Positions 936-14,620 of a DNA stretch of 21,170 bases are shown here, one piece after another; the first letter of the stretch is position 1; each line of letters opens with the position of its first letter. Under the pieces are notes generated by a model that did not search any database, was not told the origin of the DNA, and was given only the letters and a program-made list of their open reading frames with translations. This stretch comes from a virus, in the IMG/VR virus record IMGVR_UViG_3300027797_000172, positions 1 to 21,170 of that record, one strand, 5' to 3'. Position numbers and translations under genes: made by a program.

Positions 936-3900
936 ATGGCAACAAACAGTAAAGTATTCGTGTCACCTGGAGTGTACACATCGGAAAGAGACTTAAGCTT
1001 TGTTACTCAGAGTGTTGGGGTTACTACTTTAGGTATGGTTGGTGAGGCTTTAAAAGGTCCTGCCTTTGAACCAATCTTCATTAGTAATTATGATGAGTTC
1101 CAAACTTATTTCGGGGGGACAAGCCCTGAAAAATTTATAAACACGCAAATTCCTAAGTACGAATCAGCGTACATCGCAAAATCATACCTACAACAATCTA
1201 ATCAAATGTTTATGACAAGAGTATTAGGTTTATCAGGATATGATGCGGGTCCTTCTTGGTCAATTCAAACAATTGCCAATGTTGACCCTACAACGGTGGC
1301 GTTCCAAGAGACTTGTACATCAGTACCTAATTTTGTCGACAATACTTGCGACATTATTTGTACCGTTGATTCAATATCTTTCGATATCCCTTTTACAGGA
1401 TGCGCAAATCAAGATGGTAGTATTTCGTATAATACATCATTCCCTGATGAGATACAAAATATCATCAATAACCAATACACTAAATTTAATGGGGGAGTTT
1501 CAACATTAAAATCAGATATTAATCAACAATTACTATCGATTTTTGCTCAACCAAGTTTAAGTGCTACATCAATAAACTATTGGGGTACAATCCCTACATA
1601 CGATTATGATATTTTAAACACTGCGTTTACTTCATCTAATAACGTATTGGCGGTACCTTCAGTTTCTCAAGATGAGACAGACTATACGTCATCATATAAT
1701 GATTCTTGGTATTATTCACTATTTGAAAATTTCAGTGGTAATAGTTATTCAGGATATTCATTTTGGACTGTAGTTAAAGACTTAGTTATGTTACCTAAAA
1801 CAGGAACAACAACTACTACAAGTACTACTAACCCAGTTACTACTACAAGTACAACGTTGAATCCTTGTGAAACTACAACAACAACATCACCTATTAGTAC
1901 AACTACTACAACTCAACCTGATTGTTATTCAGGAACGTTACACGGTAAGTTATATTTTTATAATGGTACTTCTTACAGTAATTATAACAACTTAATTGTC
2001 GCAACTTTACGTTCAAGAGGTATTTCAACTTATGACGCGACTCACGACGGACCTAATTATGAGGTTGAGGCGTTAAGTGCGGTAACTTTAGATTTTTCTG
2101 GAAGTTATTCTTCTGTAGGTAAAAACCCATACTCACCATTTGCGGTTAACATCACAAATGATGAAGGTAAAACGTTTGTATTCAAAACCTCTTTACAAGA
2201 GTCAGATGCTACGTACTTACCAAAAGTATTTGGAGGAAGTAATTTTGCAAAACCAAGAACAGAAGTTCCGTTATTTGTTGAAGAGGTATTCTCAAGTATG
2301 TTAAATTGGGCATTTAAGAAAGGATATGTTAGAGGTTTAAGAGCTGAGTTAATATCTTTACCTGAGTCAAGAAGTAATGATTCCTCAAGTATCGGATACT
2401 ACAATGAAAAATATCAAACACCTGAAACCCCTTGGTTAGTTTCTGAATTAAGAGGAACTAAAGTTTATAGATTGTTTAAATTTATCTCAATTGCTGACGG
2501 TAATTCTGCTAACGACCAATTAAAAATTTCGTTAATGAATATGTCTTTCAACAATCAAACATTTGACGTTGTTATTCGTGATTATTACGATACTGATGAT
2601 GCACCTGTAGTATTAGAGAAATTTACAAACTGTTCTATGGACCCTAATTTAAATAATTTTGTGGGTAAAAAAGTTGGTTCTGCTGACGGAGAATACTCAT
2701 TGAATTCTAAATTTGTAATGGTTGAAATCAATGAAGACGCACCTAAAGACTCATTACCTTGTGGTTTTGAGGGATACATTTTTAGAAATTATGATGGAGT
2801 TAAATCACCATTCCCAATTTTTAAAACTAAATACGATTTTCCAGGTGAAGTTATTTTTAACCCACCATTTGGTTATTCTAATGGACAAGATAATCCTGCG
2901 ATTAGTGCGGGAGACAATGTTAGAAGAACTTATTTAGGTTTATCAAATTCACCAGGAGCAGGATATGATTTAGATTTCTTCCAATACGCAGGTAAACAAA
3001 ATTTAGGTACAATTTGCGACCCTATACTTCAAGATTGGTCATACCTTACTAAAGGTTTCCATATGGACTCAGGAGCGACAGTTGTTAAAATCGCTGAAAC
3101 ATACGCGACTTCAGGTAGAACTGCATTTGCGGTTGGAGATGGTGCTTTTAGAAACGACCCCGATAATGCAAATAACCCGTATTACAGATTATTCGCAAGA
3201 AAATTCACATTATTTGTTAACGGAGGTTTTGACGGATGGGATGTTTATAGAGAAAATAGAACAAATAGTGATAGATTTCAAGTAGGTTCTTCAGGTTATC
3301 TTGGAGGAGCTTGTTATTCAGATAGATACCCAACCGCAACAGGTTCAGGTATGTTTAAACGTATAACAGTTGGAGATAATTCTCAAGATTGGGCAAATAC
3401 TGACTATTACGCTTACTTATTAGGACAAAGAACTTATGTTAACCCTGAAGCGGTAAACATTAACGTATTCGTTACTCCTGGTATTGATTATGTTAATAAT
3501 AGTAACTTAGTTGAGGACGCTATTGAAATGATTGAGTACGATAGAGCGGATTCATTGTACATATGTACAACTCCTGACTTTAATATGTTTGTACCTTCAA
3601 CTACCGATTCAATGGATATGATTTATCCTCAAGAAGCGGTTGATAACTTAGAACAAATAGGTATTGACTCTAACTACACGGCAACTTACTACCCTTGGGT
3701 ATTAACTCGTGATACAGTAAACAATACTCAAATCTATATTCCAGCAACTGCTGAGGTAACAAGAAACTTGGCGTTAACAGATAATATCGCATTCCCTTGG
3801 TTCGCATCAGCGGGTTACACAAGAGGTTTGGTAAATGCTATTAAAGCAAGACGTAAGTTAACTCAAGAAGATAGAGATGTTCTATACAGTGGTAGACTTA

Positions 3901-4289
3901 ACCCAATTGCAACCTTCTCAGATGTTGGTACTGTTATTTGGGGTAATAAAACATTACAAGTTAGAGAATCAGCTCTTGACAGAATCAACGTAAGAAGATT
4001 ATTATTACAAGCTCGTAAGTTGATTTCAGCAGTGGCGGTAAGATTATTGTTTGAACAAAACGATATGAAAGTTAGACAAGATTTCTTAGATGCGGTTAAT
4101 CCTATCTTAGATGCGATTAGAAGAGACAGAGGTTTATACGATTTCCGTGTGACTGTTTCATCATCACCTGAAGATTTAGATAAAAACCAATTGGTTGGTA
4201 AGATTTATATCAAACCTACTAAAGCATTAGAGTTTATTGACATCGAGTTCTTGATTACACCAACAGGAGCATCATTTGATAATATTTAA
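936..4289 (+). CDS. Contractile tail sheath protein (T4 gp18-like), extended
   Basis: The 1117-residue product forms the outer contractile tube of the tail. The N-terminus carries the typical SPGVYTSERD segment (residues 10-19) followed by VGVTTLGMVGEALKGPA. The C-terminal part carries the conserved sheath core, with FPWFASAGYTRG at about 953, then GRLNPIATFSDVG, and a final region of RINVRRLLLQARK followed by predicted strands ending in FLITPTG. T4 gp18 is 659 residues, so this protein is much longer. The extra sequence lies in the middle and includes a Thr-rich segment at about 289-330, probably as surface-exposed insert domains that do not disturb the contractile core. The ATG at 936 is preceded by AGAAATTAAAA and no Shine-Dalgarno sequence. 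A hairpin follows the stop. Family assignment is firm; the role of the inserts is unknown. Confidence 0.95.
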   Translation: MATNSKVFVSPGVYTSERDLSFVTQSVGVTTLGMVGEALKGPAFEPIFISNYDEFQTYFGGTSPEKFINTQIPKYESAYIAKSYLQQSNQMFMTRVLGLSGYDAGPSWSIQTIANVDPTTVAFQETCTSVPNFVDNTCDIICTVDSISFDIPFTGCANQDGSISYNTSFPDEIQNIINNQYTKFNGGVSTLKSDINQQLLSIFAQPSLSATSINYWGTIPTYDYDILNTAFTSSNNVLAVPSVSQDETDYTSSYNDSWYYSLFENFSGNSYSGYSFWTVVKDLVMLPKTGTTTTTSTTNPVTTTSTTLNPCETTTTTSPISTTTTTQPDCYSGTLHGKLYFYNGTSYSNYNNLIVATLRSRGISTYDATHDGPNYEVEALSAVTLDFSGSYSSVGKNPYSPFAVNITNDEGKTFVFKTSLQESDATYLPKVFGGSNFAKPRTEVPLFVEEVFSSMLNWAFKKGYVRGLRAELISLPESRSNDSSSIGYYNEKYQTPETPWLVSELRGTKVYRLFKFISIADGNSANDQLKISLMNMSFNNQTFDVVIRDYYDTDDAPVVLEKFTNCSMDPNLNNFVGKKVGSADGEYSLNSKFVMVEINEDAPKDSLPCGFEGYIFRNYDGVKSPFPIFKTKYDFPGEVIFNPPFGYSNGQDNPAISAGDNVRRTYLGLSNSPGAGYDLDFFQYAGKQNLGTICDPILQDWSYLTKGFHMDSGATVVKIAETYATSGRTAFAVGDGAFRNDPDNANNPYYRLFARKFTLFVNGGFDGWDVYRENRTNSDRFQVGSSGYLGGACYSDRYPTATGSGMFKRITVGDNSQDWANTDYYAYLLGQRTYVNPEAVNINVFVTPGIDYVNNSNLVEDAIEMIEYDRADSLYICTTPDFNMFVPSTTDSMDMIYPQEAVDNLEQIGIDSNYTATYYPWVLTRDTVNNTQIYIPATAEVTRNLALTDNIAFPWFASAGYTRGLVNAIKARRKLTQEDRDVLYSGRLNPIATFSDVGTVIWGNKTLQVRESALDRINVRRLLLQARKLISAVAVRLLFEQNDMKVRQDFLDAVNPILDAIRRDRGLYDFRVTVSSSPEDLDKNQLVGKIYIKPTKALEFIDIEFLITPTGASFDNI
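1800..1925 (+). repeat. Thr-codon-rich low-complexity tract within the sheath gene
   Basis: The tract is built of ACA/ACT codons with interspersed AGT and CCT. It encodes runs such as TTTTTSTTNPVTTTSTT and TTTTTSPISTTTTTQP, with cysteines at residues 311 and 330. It separates two globular-looking parts of the sheath insert region. At DNA level it is microsatellite-like and could change length by slippage in multiples of three. The protein stretch is probably an extended, possibly glycosylated linker, which is inference. Confidence 0.8.
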
Positions 4290-4342: not shown

Positions 4343-5158
4343 ATGAGAAAAAAAATAAACGAAGGATTTACGGAAGAGGGAACCCCCGACCTAAAATATT
4401 ACGCATTCGATTGGGACGACAATATCGTAACAATGCCAACTAGAATTATGGTTAAGGATGATAATGATGAGGTTATTGGGATGACAACTGAGGATTTCGC
4501 TCATTATAGAAACAAACTTGGAAAAGAAGAGTTCGATTATAATGGACATAAGATTGTTGGATATGATGAAGACCCATTTAGGAATTTTAGAACCGAGGGG
4601 GATAAAGCGTTTTTAGTTGACGCAATGTTAGCAAAAACAGGTCCTGCTTGGAGTGATTTTGTAGAATGTGTTAATAACGGTTCGATTTTTTCGATAATTA
4701 CTGCGAGAGGTCATAATCCAAAAACTATAAAAGAAGGTGTTTATAATTATATCATATCAGAATTTAACGGAATAAGTAAGTCTGAGTTGTTGAAAAATTT
4801 AAGAAAGTTTAGAAATTTTACAGATGAAAAAGATTTAAACGATTCCCAACTCATTAAAAGTTACTTAGATTTATGTAGATATTATCCTGTGTCGTTTGGT
4901 ACAGGGTCTGAAGCGAATCCTGAAGAAGAAAAAGTGAAAGCTTTGGACGAATTTGTGGGGTATGTTAGGGAATTATCTACGAAGTTACACAAAAAAGCGT
5001 TCCTTAAAAATAAAGTTAGTAATAATTTTGTCCCAACTATTGGTTTTTCAGATGATGACCTTAAGAATGTGGAAACGATTAAGAAACATTTTGAAGATAA
5101 ACCAGATAATATAGTACAGACTTATTTTACATCAGGAGGAAAAAAAGTTAAATACTAA
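4343..5158 (+). CDS. HAD-superfamily hydrolase, probable phosphatase
   Basis: The 271-residue protein has recognisable HAD motifs. Motif I is AFDWDDNIVT with the DxD pair at D23 and D25, the first being the expected nucleophile. Motif II is IITARG with T120. A lysine such as K197 or K199 in EEEKVKALDEF could serve as motif III. Motif IV is GFSDDDLKNV with acidic residues at 237-239. HAD enzymes transfer phosphoryl groups through an aspartyl intermediate. The substrate cannot be told from sequence: nucleotide, nucleic-acid end and protein phosphatases all use this fold. The residues between motif I and motif II would hold a cap-like insertion. Its position between sheath and tube genes is unusual. 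It may be an independent enzyme expressed late or a protein acting on virion components; neither is shown. The start at 4343 is supported by the N-terminus leading straight into motif I. Confidence 0.82.
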   Translation: MRKKINEGFTEEGTPDLKYYAFDWDDNIVTMPTRIMVKDDNDEVIGMTTEDFAHYRNKLGKEEFDYNGHKIVGYDEDPFRNFRTEGDKAFLVDAMLAKTGPAWSDFVECVNNGSIFSIITARGHNPKTIKEGVYNYIISEFNGISKSELLKNLRKFRNFTDEKDLNDSQLIKSYLDLCRYYPVSFGTGSEANPEEEKVKALDEFVGYVRELSTKLHKKAFLKNKVSNNFVPTIGFSDDDLKNVETIKKHFEDKPDNIVQTYFTSGGKKVKY

Positions 5159-5305: not shown

Positions 5306-5794
5306 ATGGCTGATTTATTGATGAAAATGCCGATACCGTACGAACCGAAACGTCAGAACCGATTTATCCTACGTTTTCCTTCTACATTGGGTATTAACGA
5401 ATGGTTTGTAGAATCAACTTCTAGACCACACATAAAAATTAATCCAACTGAGATTCAGTTTTTAAATACTTCAACATTCGTTGCGGGAAGATTTAACTGG
5501 GACCCGATTTCTGTTAAATTTCGTGACCCAATTGGACCTTCAGCGGCTCAAGCTCTTATGGAGTGGGTTCGTTTACACGCAGAATCTGTTACAGGACGTA
5601 TGGGATATGCTGCAGGTTACAAGAAAAATGTTGACTTGGAGATGTTAGACCCTACAGGTGTTGTTGTTGAAAAGTGGATTTTGGAAGGTACTTTCCTAAC
5701 AGACGTATCATTTGGTGACTTAGGTTACTCCAATGATGGATTAGTTCAAATTAGTGCATCTCTTCGTATGGACAGATGTATTTTAGTTTACTAA
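5306..5794 (+). CDS. Tail tube protein (T4 gp19-like)
   Basis: The 162-residue product matches the T4 gp19 family in length (T4 gp19 is 163 residues) and in pattern. It begins with RQNRFILRFP, followed by strands and a WDPISVKFRDPIGPSAAQAL segment, and ends with LVQISASLRMDRCILVY. Tube proteins stack as hexameric rings inside the sheath and form the channel for DNA, assembling onto the baseplate around the tape measure. The gene has its own leader with elements resembling those of the sheath gene and is followed by a strong intrinsic terminator, which suggests a discrete, heavily transcribed unit. Confidence in the family is high. Confidence 0.93.
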   Translation: MADLLMKMPIPYEPKRQNRFILRFPSTLGINEWFVESTSRPHIKINPTEIQFLNTSTFVAGRFNWDPISVKFRDPIGPSAAQALMEWVRLHAESVTGRMGYAAGYKKNVDLEMLDPTGVVVEKWILEGTFLTDVSFGDLGYSNDGLVQISASLRMDRCILVY

Positions 5795-5876: not shown

Positions 5877-6632
5877 ATGGATACATCACAACAATACGGA
5901 CAACAAAACTTCAATTTACCACACGATGTGGTAAAATTACCTTCAGGCGGAGTTTTTTACAAAAATAAAAAGAAATCAGTTAAGGTTGGATATCTTACTG
6001 CCGCAGATGAAAACATTCTTATGGCAGGAGATTCAATCGGTAAAGACGGATTAGTTATTACACTTCTACGTAATAAAATATACGAACCTGATTTAAGACC
6101 TGACGAACTTATCCAAGGGGATTTAGAAGCAATATTAATATTTTTAAGAAATAGTGCTTTTGGACCTGAGTATAATATTACTCTTACAGACCCCACAACC
6201 GACAAGAAATTTGAAACAACAATTCTATTAGATGAGTTGTATATCAAAGAAACAAATCAAACCCCAAGTGAAGACGGATTTTTCACGGTTAAATTACCTA
6301 AATCAGGAATGACGGTTAAATTAAAACCATTATCTTTTGGTGAAATATCTGATTTAGATAAAATGGCGGAACAATACCCCGTTGGTAGAATTGCTCCAAA
6401 ACAAACTTGGAAATTAAATAAAATGGTGGTCGAAATTGAAGGAAATTCTGACATTGCTTTCATAACTCAATCAATTGAAGCATTACCGATATCTGACGCT
6501 AAGTTTATTAGAACTTTTGTTGAGGAGAATGAACCACGTCTGAATTTAATCAGAAAAGTTAACGCCCCGTCAGGAAAAGAGGTATATGCAAATATAGCCT
6601 TTGGGGTGGAGTTTTTTCGGCCTTTCTTCTAA
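5877..6632 (+). CDS. T4 gp26/gp51-type baseplate or tail assembly protein, short form
   Basis: The 251-residue protein has the typical N-terminal pattern of the T4 baseplate-assembly family (gp26/gp51). VVKLPSGGVFY (residues 18-28) leads into VKVGYLTAADENIL, then a mainly helical segment with DLRPDELIQGDLEAILIFLR and a strand-rich middle. It ends in GVEFFRPFF. T4 gp26 and gp51 help assemble the baseplate hub. In many phages the gene directly before the tape measure is a tail-assembly chaperone with two forms made by frameshifting, and this gene occupies that place. The start at 5877 is supported by conserved sequence beginning soon after it, although the terminator T-run ends just two bases upstream and leaves no obvious ribosome-binding site. 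The sequence probably continues in another frame through a T6 run at 6612-6617 (separate entry). Confidence 0.8.
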   Translation: MDTSQQYGQQNFNLPHDVVKLPSGGVFYKNKKKSVKVGYLTAADENILMAGDSIGKDGLVITLLRNKIYEPDLRPDELIQGDLEAILIFLRNSAFGPEYNITLTDPTTDKKFETTILLDELYIKETNQTPSEDGFFTVKLPKSGMTVKLKPLSFGEISDLDKMAEQYPVGRIAPKQTWKLNKMVVEIEGNSDIAFITQSIEALPISDAKFIRTFVEENEPRLNLIRKVNAPSGKEVYANIAFGVEFFRPFF

Positions 6633-6777
6633 TTATCGAGAAACCCAATCTTGGGAATATTATATCTGTACGAAACATTTAAACATCTCGTATTCAGATT
6701 TTAACATTATGCCTGTTTATTTGAGAAGATATTTAATTGACCAATTAGTTAAAGAAATGACTCCAAAAAATAGTTAA
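6598..6777 (+). CDS. Second-frame extension of the assembly protein (probable frameshift product C-terminus)
   Basis: The frame one base ahead of the 5877 gene is open from 6598 (just after TAG at 6595-6597) to TAA at 6775-6777. Past the T6 run it encodes 53 residues, including ETQSWEYYICTKHLNISYSD and MPVYLRRYLIDQLVKEM. The composition is that of a real protein: an aromatic-rich helix, a short loop and an amphipathic helix. The only ATG in this frame (6709) would give just 22 residues, so independent translation from ATG is unlikely. Joined at the T6 run, the long form would be 299 residues (+1) or 300 residues (-2). The extension lies between the assembly gene and the tape-measure gene, the place where tail chaperone T-domains encoded by frameshifting are found in many phages. 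Confidence 0.65.
   Translation, partial: PLGWSFFGLSSNYRETQSWEYYICTKHLNISYSDFNIMPVYLRRYLIDQLVKEMTPKNS
6612..6617 (+). other. Candidate frameshift site (T6 run)
   Basis: In the zero frame the run is read as GAG TTT TTT CGG, five codons before the stop at 6630-6632. A P-site Phe-tRNA on TTT can re-pair with TTT after slipping forward by one or back by two, and in either case the next codon is TTC in the extension frame. A -1 slip would reach a stop near 6683 after only about twenty codons. No strong downstream pseudoknot was identified by eye. An insertion or deletion error in the homopolymer is the main alternative. Confidence 0.55.
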
Positions 6778-6805: not shown

Positions 6806-8869
6806 ATGGGAAACTTAGGAGCGGGAAATACGGGTACTAACAAACAAGATTTAGACGCTGCAATCAGTGCTGCGGAAACCGCCGCCAAAGTTGATTTAGG
6901 TAAAGTTATACCAGGTCTTGAAACCATTCTTACTAAATTATCAACGACGATTCCCATTATTGGTAATTTGGCTACCGAAATTAAAAATTCTATTGAAGCT
7001 ACCGAGTCCCAAGTAAACTCTGTATCAAGGTTATTTGCGGGAAGTCATTTATTAGCTCAACAAACCCGAGATATATATCGTGATGTAACGCCTTCAGTCG
7101 CGGCTTTAGGAGGAAACATTTCTGATGTCGCTAAAATTCAAAAAGGAGTTTTAGAAGGACTACAAACACAATCAACCTTAAATACCGAGTCATATAAAGA
7201 CCTATATGCTGCGGGTTCCTTAGTTGCTGGGTCGGGCGAAAACGCGTCCGCTAAAGCCGCCGCAATGATACCATTATTTGCGAATGCAGGTTATGGTATA
7301 AATAATATTGGTAAAGAAATGACGGGGATACTTAATACTGGAAAAGAATTAGGTGTTACCTCAGTCTCGGTTTATAAACAAATGGAGAGCCAGATGGGTA
7401 AATTGGCTTTATATAATTTTGACGGTGGGGTACAAGGTATGGCTAAAATGGCGGCCCAAGCGTCACTATTAAGAATAGATATGAGTCAAACTTTAGGTTT
7501 GGCTGATAAATTATTTGAGCCTGATGCTGCGGTTCAAATGTCCGCAGCATTTCAAAGACTAGGAGTTCAAGTAACTAGTTTACTTGACCCATATAAATTA
7601 ATGGATATGTCAAGAAACGACCCCGCAAAACTACAAGAAGAGGTTGGTAAAGCGTTAAAATCTTTGACGTATTTTGATGAACAAAGTAAAAGTGTTAGAA
7701 TCCTACCTGGAGCTCAAGGTCATTTAAGAGAGATTGCAAAAGAAATGGGTATGAGTTCCGACCAAGTGGCAAAATGGGCGATTAATGCGGGAGACCTTGA
7801 TAGAAAAATGAAAGAAATTACATTTAATCCCGAATTTGCCGATGAAGATTCTAAAAAAATGATTGCGGGTATGGCTCAACTTGGAGCTACGGGAGGAAAA
7901 TTTGAAGGTCAATATATTATTAAAACCGCGTCAGGAGAAGAAAAATTAGTTTCTAAAGTTGATAAAACAGATTTAGATGAGATTAAGGCTAGTAATGAAA
8001 AAATGGCAAATCCTGCTAAAATGCAATTAGAGGCCAACGGTATTTTAAAAAATATTGAAGGGTTAATTGCCGCAAGAAAAGGGGTAATTGGACAATCAAT
8101 TGCGTCCGACGCTGGAACTGTTAAATCCATTAACGGTATGGCGAGACTTGTCGCTACAGGACAAGAAACTATTAATAGAACCATAGGATTACAAAGAGAC
8201 GCTAATGACCAAAACCAAATTAACGTTAAATCAATTTCAACTAATATTAATAAATTAACTACCGTTATTAGTGATGCTTTTGGCAAGGCGGCGAAAGGTG
8301 ATATGACAGGAGCTGGTAGTACTTTATTAACAGGTGGTCAGACCGCACTAAATGATTTAAAAGCCGCAGCTTCAAATGTTCCTAACAATATTGCAGGTGC
8401 GAGTGAAATGTTTGGAACCCAAGGGGAAGTTAAAGCAATACAAGACGCAATTATTAATCTTAAATCCTCATTACCGCAAGAAGTACAAGATATGATTGGA
8501 AATGCGTTTGGAAATATACAAACTCAAACGGTTAATGGGGCAACACTGCAACCTGCAACTCCTGGTTCGACAATAGTTGCTCCAACTGCGTTACCCTCTC
8601 AAATAGTACCACAATCAACAATTGTCCCACAAACACCGTCAATTCCTGAGACAGGGACAGTTAAAGTTGAAGGTTCTTTAAGTGTGAATGTTAATCCTGT
8701 TGGGTTAAATAGTTTTGTTATGGATATGTTAGCTCAGTCGGATGTTTCAAACGCTATCTATCAGGGGAATAGTAAAACTCAAATAATGTTAAACGACCTT
8801 AAAGGTAGTGGTGAGAATAAAGCTAAGGCTGGAAATCTATTTGGACCTACAACCGCTTACGTTGGTTAA
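6806..8869 (+). CDS. Tail tape-measure-like protein
   Basis: The 687-residue product is largely helical by composition, rich in Ala, Gly, Leu, Lys and Asn, with long stretches of amphipathic pattern. Examples are residues about 15-75 (DLDAAISAAETAAKV onward) and the central LGLADKLFEPDAAVQMSAAF region. A proline/threonine-rich linker follows (about 575-615, including PSQIVPQSTIVPQTPSIPET), then a short C-terminal region. The tape-measure assignment rests on its place straight after the tail-assembly chaperone candidate, its size and its helical character, not on a diagnostic motif. At the usual rough 0.15 nm per residue it would set a tail near 100 nm, similar to T4. The N-terminus begins at ATG 6806 with a flexible Gly/Asn/Thr stretch. 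No clear enzymatic domain was recognised. Confidence 0.72.
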   Translation: MGNLGAGNTGTNKQDLDAAISAAETAAKVDLGKVIPGLETILTKLSTTIPIIGNLATEIKNSIEATESQVNSVSRLFAGSHLLAQQTRDIYRDVTPSVAALGGNISDVAKIQKGVLEGLQTQSTLNTESYKDLYAAGSLVAGSGENASAKAAAMIPLFANAGYGINNIGKEMTGILNTGKELGVTSVSVYKQMESQMGKLALYNFDGGVQGMAKMAAQASLLRIDMSQTLGLADKLFEPDAAVQMSAAFQRLGVQVTSLLDPYKLMDMSRNDPAKLQEEVGKALKSLTYFDEQSKSVRILPGAQGHLREIAKEMGMSSDQVAKWAINAGDLDRKMKEITFNPEFADEDSKKMIAGMAQLGATGGKFEGQYIIKTASGEEKLVSKVDKTDLDEIKASNEKMANPAKMQLEANGILKNIEGLIAARKGVIGQSIASDAGTVKSINGMARLVATGQETINRTIGLQRDANDQNQINVKSISTNINKLTTVISDAFGKAAKGDMTGAGSTLLTGGQTALNDLKAAASNVPNNIAGASEMFGTQGEVKAIQDAIINLKSSLPQEVQDMIGNAFGNIQTQTVNGATLQPATPGSTIVAPTALPSQIVPQSTIVPQTPSIPETGTVKVEGSLSVNVNPVGLNSFVMDMLAQSDVSNAIYQGNSKTQIMLNDLKGSGENKAKAGNLFGPTTAYVG

Positions 8870-8926: not shown

Positions 8927-11900
8927 ATGCCAAGTAAATTAACATTTCCATCTACTGAAGGTTTTAGAAATAAGTTACTATCAAGAAACTTGTCTCCATA
9001 TACGGTGCCAGGAAGTTATACTCCTCCATCAGGACAAATTGTTCAGGAAACTATTCTTAGAGACCAAAGTGTTATTGACCAAGATGATTCGTTAATTGAG
9101 AATCCGCCAAAAAATCTTGGACCTGTTTATCACGGTTTATATAATTTAAATGAGTTTGGTCCTGACCAAGGATATGGGGATACTTTTTCTCAATCACTAC
9201 CATCATCGTTAACTGCAAATTTAGGGGAATATGATGTCACCGACGCGTCTTTACCCCAACAGAGTTTAGACGGTAACACTTGGCCTTCGTACAATTCTAA
9301 CGCAATTTCTGAAGAAGATATTACGTCTGTTAATAGATGGGCGTTTACAACTATTCAATTAGCCCAAATAGGTAATCTACTTCTTACTCCAAAATTTGAG
9401 GAGTACGATACTTTAAATGCAAGTTTACCTGAACAAAGTATTAATGGTAACACTTGGCCTTCATATAATTCAAGTGCGATATCTGAGGAAGATATTCCGT
9501 CAGTTAACAAATATTCTTTTGATTTTGTACAATTGGCATTAATAGGTAATTTATTATTAACTCCAATATATTCAAGATATGACATTACTCACGCGTCTTT
9601 ACCACAACAAAGTTTGGATGGTGCGGGATGGCCAGCGTATAACGCAAACGCAATTAGTGAAAATACAATATCTTCAGTTAACAAATACGGATTACCATCG
9701 ATAATATTATATCAAATAAATGATTTTATATTATCACCAACTTATGAACAATATAATTTAAATTTAGCGAGTTTACCTCAACAAAGTTTAAACGGTAATA
9801 ATTGGCCTTCTTACAATTCAGGAGCGATTTCTGAACAAGATATTCCATCGGTTAATAGATGGAGTACTCCGTTTGTTAATTTATTTTCAATTGGTAGTGT
9901 TATTTTACCCCCTAAATTTGTGGAATATGGTGTAACAAACGCAACATTACCTGACCAAAGTTTAACAGGGGCGGGATGGCCTTCATACAACCAAGGAATT
10001 TCTGAACAAGATATTCCAACAACTAACAAATATTCTTGGAGTAACTCAGGAGGGATACAAATATATTCAGTTGACACTAAACAATTAGTACCAACTTTTA
10101 AAACATATGCAGACCCACTAGGGTTTGTCCCGTCTTATTATACTCCGTATCAAATCTTATTACAAGATGACCCAACAGGAAGTGACGGTAGTCTATCTCA
10201 GGATTCATTCATCGCTCAACTTGGGGCTAAAACTTTAAAACAAGAATTTAAAGAAAGAATTGCTAGACAATTAATTAAAAATACTGTCGGTAGAATTAAT
10301 CTACCAAATGCCGCAAATGACCCATTAATGGCCGTTCGAGTGTTACAAGGTAAAATTCCGTTGATTGAAAGAGATTGGGTTATTACAAGACCTGGCAACA
10401 TATTATTTAGGGCAGCAGATTTTGCCGCGAGATTAGGTGGGGTTTATTTCCCTGGGTCTGAAATACCAGGTGATTATTTTACAACGGACGAACATAATTT
10501 AAATCTTGCAGGACAAATTGCGTCCGCAATTGGTGGAAACAAAAACCCACAAGAAGGTTTCTTAGGAAAAGTTTTTGGAAGATTTTTACATCAAAAATCA
10601 CCATCACAATTATTCCTTAATAATACGGGTGGAGGACAAAAGTCACAATTATATTATTCATTAGGATTTAACAGATATGGTCCTGATTATGATAAAGGGA
10701 TTATTGGTAATTTAATTGACGGAGCAAAAAATTTATTAAATAGTCTTTTAGATAAACCTACTAAAGGAGGTTACTATGTCGGTAGTAAAGAAGTTGACCC
10801 TGGTTATGTTAGTGGACCTGCGGGTAAATTACCACTTAATATGTTTGGAGTTGAAGTACAGACATCTGTATACGGCCCAAATGTTTTAGCGGATTTATAT
10901 GAGCCAGGATTAGAAGGAATTAAATTCGGATTTGCGGGAGATTCTTTCTATGGAAACGGTGGGTTGTCAGGAGGATTAACTTGGTCAACACCACAATCAG
11001 ATTTAAAGGTCGGATATAAAGTTGGACAGAAAGGTAATCAAGTTAGTATTGACCCTGAATACAATCAAACTAAATCTTACTTATCTCTTGATTTAAGTAC
11101 TACGGATAAAAACTTTAGAGAAGGTTCCATTTTATGGAACACTCAAAAATTAGTTGAGGCGGGAGAAGGAGACCCTGCTCACGTTGGTAATGCAATCAAC
11201 CAAATCAGTAAAGTTTTTAATGATGGATATAAAGAAATTACTAAAGGTTCAAAAGTAATGACTTATGTTAGTCAGGGTGGAGTTGAAGTTGGTAAAGAAT
11301 ACTGTAGAGTTTTCACTAAAGATACCCCATATTTTACTTATGCTGATTTACAAAAAAGAGACGGTAACCATAGAGGTTATTCTTATTCCGTTTTAGACAA
11401 AACTTATAATCTTAACATAGCCCCTTTAAAAGGAACTTCAGCATCAAGCTCAACTAACATTAGAGATGGTAGAGTTAAAAAATATATGTTCTCACTTGAG
11501 AATTTAGCTTGGAGAACGTCAAATAGACCAGGATTAACTTATCTTGATTTACCTGAATGTGAAAGAGGTCCAAATGGAGGTAGAGTAATGTGGTTTCCAC
11601 CTTACGATATTTCATTTAATGAAAATGTAACACCAAGTTTCCAAGGACAAGATTTCTTAGGTAGACCTGAACCTGTTTATACTTACAAAAGTACGACAAG
11701 AACAGGAACTTTAAGTTGGAAAATTATTGTTGACCACCCGTCAATTTTGAACACTATTGTTGAAAAAGAAATGAAGGGAAAAAATAAAGAATTAGTTAAT
11801 AATATTGTTGACTCATTTTTTGCGGGATGTAAGAAATATGATATTTACGAATTAGCTAGAAAATATAATACAGTTCCAATTAGCGAATTGTTTTATATGC

Positions 11901-14620
11901 AACAATTAATTACTAATCCTAATATTACACCTGAGGATGTTACTGAGATTGGGAATACTCTTCCTGAAACCAAAGACCAAACTACACCACCAACACCTGT
12001 ACCAACAAATGTTGATTTAAGTAAATGGGTAGGGTTAGGGTTTTATTTTGATAACGATTATCCAAACCCAAAAACGACTCAAACTACGACTAATGATAGT
12101 TTTGCCTCGTTATATACTAATTATACAGGTAAACAAGGAATTTATCAAAGCAATGCAACCGCTACGGATAAACCACTTGTTGCAAACTTTTTTAAAGATG
12201 TGGTTATTTGGAGTTATAGTGAAACTGAGGCGTTCTTAAACGACTTGGTCAAAACCTTTGAAAATAACTTAACTCCCGACGGTAAAAAAACCGCGGCAAA
12301 AGTGGAATTAGTGTTAGATGGAAGTGCGTCGGCACCAAACACTAAAGAGTATAATGTTAAACTATCAAGCAGAAGAATATCTTCGGTTCAAAACTACTTA
12401 CAAAAGTGGAGTAGTGGTAAGTTGGATAAATATGTTAAAGATAAAGTTTTAACAATTAAAGATGGTGCGTCATTAGGTGAGAGTCCTACAGGAGTTTCTC
12501 CTAAAATGAAAGGTGGTGGAACTATGGGACCGTTCAACTGTTCAGATAATGACCCTGCAACGGGTAAGAGTTCGGACATATATTCTCCTAACGCTATGGC
12601 GTGTAGAAGAGTTTCAGTTAGAAGTGCCAAGGTTACAGTAGACCCAGGGTCAACAATTACTCCAAATAATAATACTCAAACAACCCCTGGCAGCATCACA
12701 CCTCCAGGATACAAGCCGTCGGTACCTTTACCCCCAACGATTACTACTACTCAAAAACTTAAAGATGGTATTAGTAAAAAAATACTAAGAAAATTACTTT
12801 CAGAATGTGATTATTTTACATTAATTGAAGAACAAAACCCTATGGTTTATGATACTATTAAGGAGAAGGTTAAGTATTTTGACCCTGCGTTTCACTCGAT
12901 GACACCTGAAGGGTTGAATTCAAGATTAACGTTCTTACACCAATGTACAAGACCTGGTGATACCATACCTGTAATTGGTAATGATGGGAAACCAAAATAT
13001 ACAAGTTCAGTAAATACTAGTTTTGGGGCTCCACCCGTATTAGTATTGAGAATTGGTGATTTTTATAATACTAAGATTATACCAACATCGTTACAAATTA
13101 CTTACGACCCGTTAGTATTAGACATAAATCCTGAAGGAATTGGTGTTCAACCTATGTTAGCAAAAATATCGTTAGGGTTTAATTTTGTTGGAGGTTCAGG
13201 ATTAAAAGAGCCAATTGATAAGTTACAAAACGCATTATCTTTTAATTATTACGCGAATACCGAAATGTATGATGAACGAGCTGATTGGACTGACGATTCA
13301 TTCAAGAAGATTGACGAGGCTTTAATAAGAGCGTTATTAGACCAAACACCTGTTGTCGGTATTAATAATGCGGACAATACACTTACAAATGAGGGAGGAA
13401 CAACTATTGGAGTTATACAAGAAAAGATTGAATCTGATTTAGGAACTAGTGGGTCAATAACCTATCAAAAAATAATGGACGATTCTTTATTAAAAGGAGG
13501 TCAATCCTATATGGAAACCATTTTAAATAAGTGTGAGCAGGTAACCAAAGACTTTAATTTTCAAATATATACCGCATTTTCACAAGGTAGAAAATATGTT
13601 GATGGTAAAACTAAAGAATTTACCTCTCCTAAAGATTTAAAGATATACGGAAAACCCGATTCTATTGATTCCAAAATTACCAAATTATATGATATGATAA
13701 TTAAGGATATTGATAACGCGACAAGTAGTAATAGTGACGGACTTAAATATATTACAAATTTATATAAAGCAGATTTTCCAAATTCGGTAATTAAAAAAGT
13801 TAAAGAAAATTTAAAAAATACGGTTAATAAAACTAAATCAAGTTTATTAACATCATTAACTTCTGCGGATAATGAAATAACTAAAGTACAACTAGAATTG
13901 ATTAGAACTTTAGCTAAATTAGATGTTGTTGATACTAAAACTGATGGGTATATTAAATCCGACCAAACGGCTAAAATATACAATTTAACCGCAACAACTG
14001 AAGTACAATCTGGTGGTACGTACTCAGACACATATGCGGAATTAGTTGGTGATTATGATACCGCGGTTACTTCTTTATTTTCATTTTATACTGACCTAAC
14101 TAGTTATCCAAGTTCTGATGGTAAGAAGACTTATAAATTAGTTGACCTTGAATATACCCCCGATAATCTAAAGGTTTATGAAGATGGTGGATTTGGTACC
14201 GACCCTAAAAATGGTGATGAGGAGAAAAGATTTTACGCAGTAATGAGTAAAACTATGTTAGATAATAATTTGTGGGAAGCGTTTATTAAAGAAGTTGTCC
14301 CTGAAGATATTGCGAACACACCATCTAATGGAGATAGGTTATTAACATTTACTAAATCATATTATACAATAATTAAAGGTAGCTATAAAGAAGAGTATGA
14401 TGCAGAACAAAAAATTGTGAAATCGTTTAAAGAAACTGCTAATTATAAAGACAAGTATTCTAAATGGACTCCATACCCGTCAGGTAAAGTTAGAAAATTT
14501 ACTTTTAATGGTTATGTTGCGGGAACTACTGAACAATCAACAAGAATACAGAATTTATATAAAAATGGTAACTCTAATGATGATACCAAAACATTTAACG
14601 GAAAAAATAAACTAAACTAA
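8927..14620 (+). CDS. Giant baseplate protein with tandem repeats and OmpA-like domain
   Basis: The 1897-residue product has several parts in order. Residues about 101-392 hold five tandem repeats of about 58 residues around the pattern ASLPQQSLxGxxWPSYN. A long middle region follows, with VMWFPPYDISFNEN at about 887-900 followed by a GRPEPVYTYKSTTRTGTLSW segment, a pattern I associate with structural baseplate proteins of large phages. A Pro/Thr linker (about residues 1015-1030) precedes an OmpA-like domain (about 1035-1235) with GFYFDND, GSASAPNTKEYNVKLSSRR and CRRVSV. A second structural segment follows (LRIGDFYNTKIIPTSLQITY), then a helical, lysine-rich C-terminal third. No catalytic motif was recognised. 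Its stop overlaps the next ATG in TAATG. It likely forms part of the baseplate and may anchor the tail to peptidoglycan; the exact place in the baseplate is unknown. Confidence 0.8.
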   Translation: MPSKLTFPSTEGFRNKLLSRNLSPYTVPGSYTPPSGQIVQETILRDQSVIDQDDSLIENPPKNLGPVYHGLYNLNEFGPDQGYGDTFSQSLPSSLTANLGEYDVTDASLPQQSLDGNTWPSYNSNAISEEDITSVNRWAFTTIQLAQIGNLLLTPKFEEYDTLNASLPEQSINGNTWPSYNSSAISEEDIPSVNKYSFDFVQLALIGNLLLTPIYSRYDITHASLPQQSLDGAGWPAYNANAISENTISSVNKYGLPSIILYQINDFILSPTYEQYNLNLASLPQQSLNGNNWPSYNSGAISEQDIPSVNRWSTPFVNLFSIGSVILPPKFVEYGVTNATLPDQSLTGAGWPSYNQGISEQDIPTTNKYSWSNSGGIQIYSVDTKQLVPTFKTYADPLGFVPSYYTPYQILLQDDPTGSDGSLSQDSFIAQLGAKTLKQEFKERIARQLIKNTVGRINLPNAANDPLMAVRVLQGKIPLIERDWVITRPGNILFRAADFAARLGGVYFPGSEIPGDYFTTDEHNLNLAGQIASAIGGNKNPQEGFLGKVFGRFLHQKSPSQLFLNNTGGGQKSQLYYSLGFNRYGPDYDKGIIGNLIDGAKNLLNSLLDKPTKGGYYVGSKEVDPGYVSGPAGKLPLNMFGVEVQTSVYGPNVLADLYEPGLEGIKFGFAGDSFYGNGGLSGGLTWSTPQSDLKVGYKVGQKGNQVSIDPEYNQTKSYLSLDLSTTDKNFREGSILWNTQKLVEAGEGDPAHVGNAINQISKVFNDGYKEITKGSKVMTYVSQGGVEVGKEYCRVFTKDTPYFTYADLQKRDGNHRGYSYSVLDKTYNLNIAPLKGTSASSSTNIRDGRVKKYMFSLENLAWRTSNRPGLTYLDLPECERGPNGGRVMWFPPYDISFNENVTPSFQGQDFLGRPEPVYTYKSTTRTGTLSWKIIVDHPSILNTIVEKEMKGKNKELVNNIVDSFFAGCKKYDIYELARKYNTVPISELFYMQQLITNPNITPEDVTEIGNTLPETKDQTTPPTPVPTNVDLSKWVGLGFYFDNDYPNPKTTQTTTNDSFASLYTNYTGKQGIYQSNATATDKPLVANFFKDVVIWSYSETEAFLNDLVKTFENNLTPDGKKTAAKVELVLDGSASAPNTKEYNVKLSSRRISSVQNYLQKWSSGKLDKYVKDKVLTIKDGASLGESPTGVSPKMKGGGTMGPFNCSDNDPATGKSSDIYSPNAMACRRVSVRSAKVTVDPGSTITPNNNTQTTPGSITPPGYKPSVPLPPTITTTQKLKDGISKKILRKLLSECDYFTLIEEQNPMVYDTIKEKVKYFDPAFHSMTPEGLNSRLTFLHQCTRPGDTIPVIGNDGKPKYTSSVNTSFGAPPVLVLRIGDFYNTKIIPTSLQITYDPLVLDINPEGIGVQPMLAKISLGFNFVGGSGLKEPIDKLQNALSFNYYANTEMYDERADWTDDSFKKIDEALIRALLDQTPVVGINNADNTLTNEGGTTIGVIQEKIESDLGTSGSITYQKIMDDSLLKGGQSYMETILNKCEQVTKDFNFQIYTAFSQGRKYVDGKTKEFTSPKDLKIYGKPDSIDSKITKLYDMIIKDIDNATSSNSDGLKYITNLYKADFPNSVIKKVKENLKNTVNKTKSSLLTSLTSADNEITKVQLELIRTLAKLDVVDTKTDGYIKSDQTAKIYNLTATTEVQSGGTYSDTYAELVGDYDTAVTSLFSFYTDLTSYPSSDGKKTYKLVDLEYTPDNLKVYEDGGFGTDPKNGDEEKRFYAVMSKTMLDNNLWEAFIKEVVPEDIANTPSNGDRLLTFTKSYYTIIKGSYKEEYDAEQKIVKSFKETANYKDKYSKWTPYPSGKVRKFTFNGYVAGTTEQSTRIQNLYKNGNSNDDTKTFNGKNKLN
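9227..10102 (+). repeat. Five tandem 174-bp coding repeats (58 residues each)
   Basis: Equivalent codons start at 9227, 9401, 9575, 9749 and 9923, giving four exact steps of 174 bp; the fifth unit is about 180 bp. Each unit contains YD/YN, then ASLPQQSL, G, WPSYN, AISExDI and SVNKY/NRW, followed by a hydrophobic stretch ending in IGxxLLxP. The units are diverged at DNA level but keep exact length, except that the fifth lacks one residue at NQGISEQ and gains others later. They look like an old, selected repeat rather than a recent duplication. Function is unknown; an elongated fibre-like or ring-decorating structure is possible. Confidence 0.9.

Follow-up and report, generated by a model that had tools for sequence, protein, structure and literature searches.

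A conserved, probable +1 frameshift site in the gp26/gp51-type tail assembly chaperone gene of an IMG/VR virus and its relatives

The chaperone gene and its neighbours

We analysed a stretch of viral DNA of 21,170 nucleotides (IMG/VR record IMGVR_UViG_3300027797_000172, positions 1 to 21,170), referred to below as the window. The gene of interest (5877-6632) follows a tail tube gene (5306-5794) and precedes a large ORF located where a tape measure is expected (6806-8869), and its 3' end overlaps a second open frame. The features considered here, all on the plus strand, are the following:

936..4289, +, tail sheath protein (phrog_23, E = 1.9e-52)
5306..5794, +, tail tube protein (phrog_4542, E = 4e-25)
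5877..6632, +, T4 gp26/gp51-type tail assembly chaperone, short form, 251 aa (PF12322, phrog_150, AlphaFold2 fold)
6603..6606, +, GGGG at -12 to -9, unchanged across 25/25 representatives even at a four-fold degenerate site
6612..6617, +, T6 run, its first half dispensable (TTC TTT CGG in relatives L020 and L021)
6615..6620, +, slip site TTT CGG, its TTT and CG invariant in 80/80 loci
6616..6777, +, 53-aa extension in the +1 frame, between the re-paired TTC and the stop (open frame, conservation, fold, homology)
6622..6629, +, CTTTCTTC, invariant and constrained in both frames (PFF in the zero frame, LSS in the +1 frame)
6630..6632, +, short-form stop, two codons later in some relatives (FFGL*)
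6806..8869, +, putative tape-measure protein (position only)

In profile searches the zero-frame product of 5877-6632 matched PF12322 (T4_baseplate; E = 5.8e-8, 33.1 bits, above the curated cut-off of 24.5 bits) and phrog_150 (E = 8.8e-13). For structure prediction the short form and the extension were folded separately. The short form gave a confident AlphaFold2 model (pLDDT 87) which, in fold searches, resembled gp26-type proteins only (SP-15 hub, TM 0.81, E = 2e-16), and structure searches returned no solved structure matching its fold or the sequences. An hhalign alignment of the short form with T4 gp26 was not significant, and membership of the gp26/gp51 family is assigned from the Pfam and PHROG profiles together with the fold search. 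The product of 6806-8869 had no family match among Pfam and PHROG profiles and did not significantly match the tape measure annotated in phage immuto.

Several neighbouring proteins have features of their own. The sheath is enlarged (1117 aa), and its inserted part holds a Thr-rich low-complexity stretch (TTTTTSTTNPVTTTSTT...). Between the sheath and tube genes, 4343-5158 encodes a 271-aa protein without a Pfam match, in which FDWDDNIVTMP resembles HAD phosphatase motif I by eye. Downstream, 8927-14620 encodes an 1897-aa protein with several degenerate repeats of the type SLPQQSLDGNTWPSYNSNAISEEDI..SVNK in its N-terminal part and a weak OmpA-like stretch, with no other match reported.

The zero frame of the chaperone gene ends, from position 6603, in GGG GTG GAG TTT TTT CGG CCT TTC TTC TAA, where the two TTT codons start at 6612 and 6615, CGG at 6618 and the stop occupies 6630-6632. 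Shifted by +1, the frame stays open from 6598 until a TAA at 6775-6777, with the reading ...FFGLSSNYRETQSWEYYICTKHLNISYSDFNIMPVYLRRYLIDQLVKEMTPKNS. The sequence and coordinates of the original prediction hold as given, as does its statement that this frame lacks a usable start: its ATGs all lie at 6709 or beyond, deep inside the conserved part. Taking TTTC as one Phe step gives a joined protein of 299 residues. The motif TTTTTTCG alone is not rare (2 occurrences in the window versus 2.75 expected), and the significance of the site comes from its conservation.

Conservation of the slip site and the extension

A scan of viral contigs yielded a clade sample of 80 loci with short forms 57-100% identical. 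At every one of these the frame breaks at the same place and an extension is open in the +1 frame, although a few contigs end inside the extension; an in-frame UUU CGN likewise lies inside the overlap, with the downstream ORF in +1, at 80/80 loci. The P-site codon is TTT throughout, followed by CGT (41 loci), CGG (26) or CGC (13) and never, among the 80 loci, by AGA or AGG. A T6 run is present at 78/80. The alignment of homologues that had been proposed as a check thus finds the extension present and split at the same position in all clade members, and comparison establishes both the dual-frame architecture and the UUU_C(GN) motif as conserved.

Coding constraint was assessed on 25 representatives, each below 90% identity. 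The extension frame contains 0 stops in 1273 codons versus 95/1248 and 153/1248 in the other two frames, and changes within it number 2209, 1506 and 3585 at codon positions 1, 2 and 3, a substitution pattern typical of a coding frame. Site nucleotides are better conserved than their surroundings: GGGG, TTT, CG and CTTTCTTC are invariant in these representatives, while the third base of CGN is free. In each frame, alternate positions of CTTTCTTC could change without altering the protein, and its invariance therefore suggests selection on the short end (PFF) as well as the long form (LSS), or on the RNA itself. The zero-frame stop is less fixed; in L048-type loci it lies two codons later (FFGL*), which indicates that the frameshift does not depend on the stop codon.

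Codon choice at the site departs from the local norm. The usual Arg codon is AGA, yet the slip site is always CGN within the clade. Arg codons in the window number 113 AGA, 8 AGG, 17 CGT, 5 CGA, 0 CGC and 1 CGG, and this single CGG among 4682 codons is the one at the slip site. Across 63,304 codons from clade loci, 13 of 16 CGG and 8 of 10 CGC codons stand directly after TTT. Outside the slip site, four large relatives (103 to 158 kb) contain 8 TTT-CGN versus 136 TTT-AGR pairs, compared with a CGN:AGR ratio of 365:1381 after other NNT codons (Fisher p = 1e-6 for avoidance of UUU_CGN). This avoidance may be partly due to other sequence biases: codon-pair biases are large in these relatives, and GAT-CGN is at zero because GATC is avoided.

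GATC is absent from the window (0 versus 50 expected) and nearly so from the four large relatives (L345-L372; 0-1 versus 295-516 expected), and the relative of L002 also lacks CATG (0 of about 474). Judged from these counts, the absences reflect strong avoidance of restriction or methylation sites.

Direction and proposed mechanism of the shift

Related phages carry +1 sites at the same gene position, including phages of Flavobacterium, Microcystis, Bacillus and Streptomyces, and their variants are informative about direction. Within the clade, L020 and L021 read GAG TTC TTT CGG. The site is CTG TTT CGC in BRock, pSt2308 and GiJojo, TTC TTT CGT in Streptococcus phage GXN1, TTC TTT CCC in QdP_Psa3, AAC TTT CTA in LR756508 and TTT TTT CAC in SP-15; in Listeria phage LIS04 it is TTT TTT AGT, where +1 re-pairing is possible from the first TTT. 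The group of Flavobacterium phage immuto has TTT TTT TGG (40 loci), TTT CTT TGG (34), TTT CTA TGG (4) or TTT CTT TAC (1), with the +1 frame open for at least 40 codons past the stop in 77/79 loci and the -1 frame in one. The Microcystis phage group has TTT TGG or TTT TAC at 76 loci, with T6 or T7 in most. Across these alignments the common rule is that a pyrimidine comes directly after the P-site UUU, which would allow tRNA-Phe to re-pair on UUU or UUC one base downstream. The slippery element of the original prediction, a pure T-run, gives way to UUU followed by C (or U), with CGN as the next codon in the clade of the window.

A -1 shift on X_XXY_YYZ is ruled out for the window, where the extension lies in the +1 frame. 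The original prediction allowed either +1 or -2, of which only +1 survives. A -2 shift of the kind described for Mu, in which tRNA-Phe slips back two bases on the T6 run, would reach the same frame and yield 300 residues with three Phe and the junction peptide EVYANIAFGVEFFFGLSSNYR, and the T-runs at nearly all clade loci and in most of the Microcystis phage group are what it would lead one to expect. Re-pairing two bases upstream fails, however, in TTC TTT CGG, where it would place tRNA-Phe on TCT, and it is equally impossible in CTG TTT CGC (BRock group), TTC TTT CCC (QdP_Psa3) and both TTT CTT TGG and TTT CTA TGG of the immuto group. By this comparison of variants the direction is +1, membership in the Mu type is rejected and we consider a -2 shift very unlikely.

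Transcriptional slippage, with RNA polymerase dropping one U or adding two in the T6 run, would likewise draw on the T-run found at most loci. The longest T-run is, however, only 3 in the TTCTTTCGG, CTGTTTCGC and TTTCTTTGG members, and such slippage needs neither CGN over AGR nor UUU in P-site phase, both of which are codon-level features. We therefore regard it as highly improbable and infer that the slippage is ribosomal.

Expression of the extension as a separate small gene, through reinitiation or a non-canonical start, would agree with its listing as an ORF of its own in SP-15, BRock, cyanophage and Flavobacterium phage records. This reading is barely tenable: the conserved block FxLSSxYR begins before any ATG, GTG or TTG in several loci, and in three representatives (L007, L019, L044) a +1-frame stop lies just before the slip, so that the frame opens one codon ahead of it with no start codon before the conserved block, and the invariant UUU_CGN would be left unexplained. 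A homopolymer error in assembly or sequencing, which would make the real gene a single frame and for which T6 is a typical context, has practically no chance of being correct and is refuted by comparison, since the same break recurs in 80 clade contigs and in isolated, sequenced phages of other families, the site nucleotides are more conserved than their surroundings and no clade homologue repairs the frame.

Programmed +1 ribosomal frameshifting in 5877-6632, giving two proteins that act as a short and long chaperone pair, is the reading that we favour, at a probability of roughly 88%; the frameshift that had been predicted to join the chaperone to a hidden C-terminal domain ahead of the tape-measure position is strongly supported by comparison. 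Most ribosomes would stop at 6632 and release the 251-residue short form. In a fraction, tRNA-Phe would sit on the P-site UUU (6615-6617) while the ribosome pauses at the very rare Arg codon CGG; with the A site slow or empty, the tRNA-Phe would re-pair one base downstream on UUC (6616-6618). The next codon would then be GGC (6619-6621), and reading on to 6777 would produce the 299-residue long form with the junction peptide EVYANIAFGVEFFGLSSNYR, containing two Phe (FFGLSS).

A role for A-site codon rarity is plausible for CGG and CGC and weaker for CGT. CGT is not very rare and occupies about half of the clade sites, which scarcity of the A-site tRNA alone cannot explain; some sister groups have UUU_UGG or UUU_CUU instead of UUU_CGN. 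The nearest large relative (158 kb) carries 28 tRNA genes covering nearly all amino acids (L349:5105-17423 and L351:6692-6766), among which are two tRNA-Phe(GAA), Arg(ACG) and Arg(TCT); CGG has no tRNA in this set. No tRNA genes were found in the other three large relatives (103-156 kb), so the argument from the tRNA set is suggestive only.

The GGGG at 6603-6606 is at most a tentative candidate for a Shine-Dalgarno-like stimulator, its pairing with the anti-Shine-Dalgarno sequence being modestly better than in local controls (ranks 1st to 13th of 60). Downstream RNA structure is not conserved, being inconsistent between relatives and weak in the consensus. Bacteroidota, the probable hosts, make little use of Shine-Dalgarno sequences. 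The start codons of the window lack Shine-Dalgarno-like leaders and the closest isolates to its tail sheath include Flavobacterium phages, which together make a Bacteroidota host likely; a scan of bacterial genomes for the host returned one distant locus only.

Relation to the T4 and lambda chaperones and to known +1 shifts

The extension alone is predicted to form three helices (pLDDT 86). Its counterpart in the Microcystis phage group is a clear homologue (hhalign 97.6%, E = 3.4e-12), and direct comparisons with T4 gp51 and with the cyanophage extension gave no significant match. A Foldseek search with the extension model returned nothing significant; two tail assembly chaperones among its top six rows are only suggestive. 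In lambda, the short form gpG coats the tape measure and the extension of gpGT recruits tube subunits (PMC5009743). By analogy, we infer that the short and long forms here are a tail assembly chaperone pair, the counterpart of lambda G/GT, in which the common part would coat the tape measure and the extra C-terminal domain would recruit tail-tube subunits. Here, as in lambda, a short and an extended form would come from one gene by a shift near its 3' end, beside the tape-measure position; the two differ in that lambda uses a -1 shift on a slippery heptamer (Xu 2004; PMC5009743), whereas the gene studied here belongs to the T4 gp26/gp51 family (PF12322) and would shift +1 on UUU_CGN.

T4 itself was described in a 2016 review as an exception to G/GT frameshifting (PMC5009743), and gp26 and gp51 appear in the literature among the hub assembly chaperones, of which gp51 is essential and does not occur in the particle (PMC3004832). 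Short and long chaperone genes of T4-like phages (gp26/gp51) are attributed to Vladimirov, Gautam and Davidson (2022, Virology 566:9-15), as cited in PMC10885494 and PMC12846349. In T4 each form has its own gene (26 and 51): gp26 stops at the Phe-Phe position of the slip site, and gp51 bears a C-terminal extension. Here a single gene would yield both through a +1 shift. In a third arrangement the site is U_UUU_UUC (cyanophages, Rhizobium phages, phiAS5, Atu_ph07, PA5oct, RaK2 and LR756511) or U_UUU_UUG (RL38J1) and the extension after it lies in the -1 frame; poly-T -1 sites were already known in T4-like phages (PMC12846349). The cyanophage -1 extension aligns with the end of T4 gp51 (60.7%, E = 8e-5), and gp51 comprises the same domain as that extension plus about 48 residues. 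What cyanophage records annotate as an ORF for a 'baseplate hub assembly catalyst' is this -1-frame extension, and other ORFs annotated separately, under that name or as hypothetical, are out-of-frame extensions of the upstream gp26 gene. Such separately annotated extension ORFs lie at:

L091:2699-2890
L094:2309-2482
L085:3324-3443
L088:3258-3440
L263:3652-3762

UUU_CGN is the +1 motif of influenza PA-X and of plant amalgaviruses, where each of the four CGN codons is represented; at the influenza site the measured shifting was about 1-2% (PMC5052127). Those sites share with ours an identical P- and A-site motif, the +1 direction and a variable third base in CGN, but they are read by eukaryotic ribosomes, whereas ours would be read by bacterial ribosomes, and the genes have no homology. 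Among tailed phages and viruses, +1 shifts occur in Listeria phage PSA and, very likely, in the tail assembly gene of haloarchaeal HSTV-2 (PMC5009743); in PSA the shift takes place at a Pro codon, in the capsid and tail-shaft genes, and neither has been reported as UUU_CGN.

A further comparison is with the bacterial prfB gene (RF2), where the P-site tRNA slips by +1 at a slow A site behind a G-rich upstream element and where an A-site stop codon is needed. The present site shares the G-rich upstream element and, as proposed here, the P-site +1 slip at a slow A site; its A site holds a sense codon, with the stop several codons further on.

Tail chaperone frameshifts, -1 sites and the T4 two-gene pair are already known. 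In the open-access literature, a scope that leaves out Vladimirov et al. 2022, we found no description of a +1 UUU_C class in the gp26/gp51 family; the +1 UUU_C mechanism and its conservation thus appear to be new, UUU_CGN having come previously, as far as we found, from eukaryotic viruses only. A broader proposition, to which we give even odds, is that bacterial and eukaryotic ribosomes alike slip +1 intrinsically at UUU_CGN (or at UUU before a pyrimidine when the A-site codon is slow), a site which this lineage would use as its chaperone switch and avoid elsewhere. On that proposition, the subclade of the window would reserve for the switch an Arg codon unread by known phage tRNAs, and within the family the switch would have changed sign (-1, +1) or become two genes (T4).

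For annotation, the result corrects records that usually enter the extension as a hypothetical protein of its own or as a 'baseplate hub assembly catalyst', or that overlook it. For the T4 gp26/gp51 family, it adds a large conserved +1 class, so that natural versions with a +1 shift, a -1 shift and no shift may be compared at one homologous position, as a test of forward versus backward slipping and of how the ratio between short and long forms is set.
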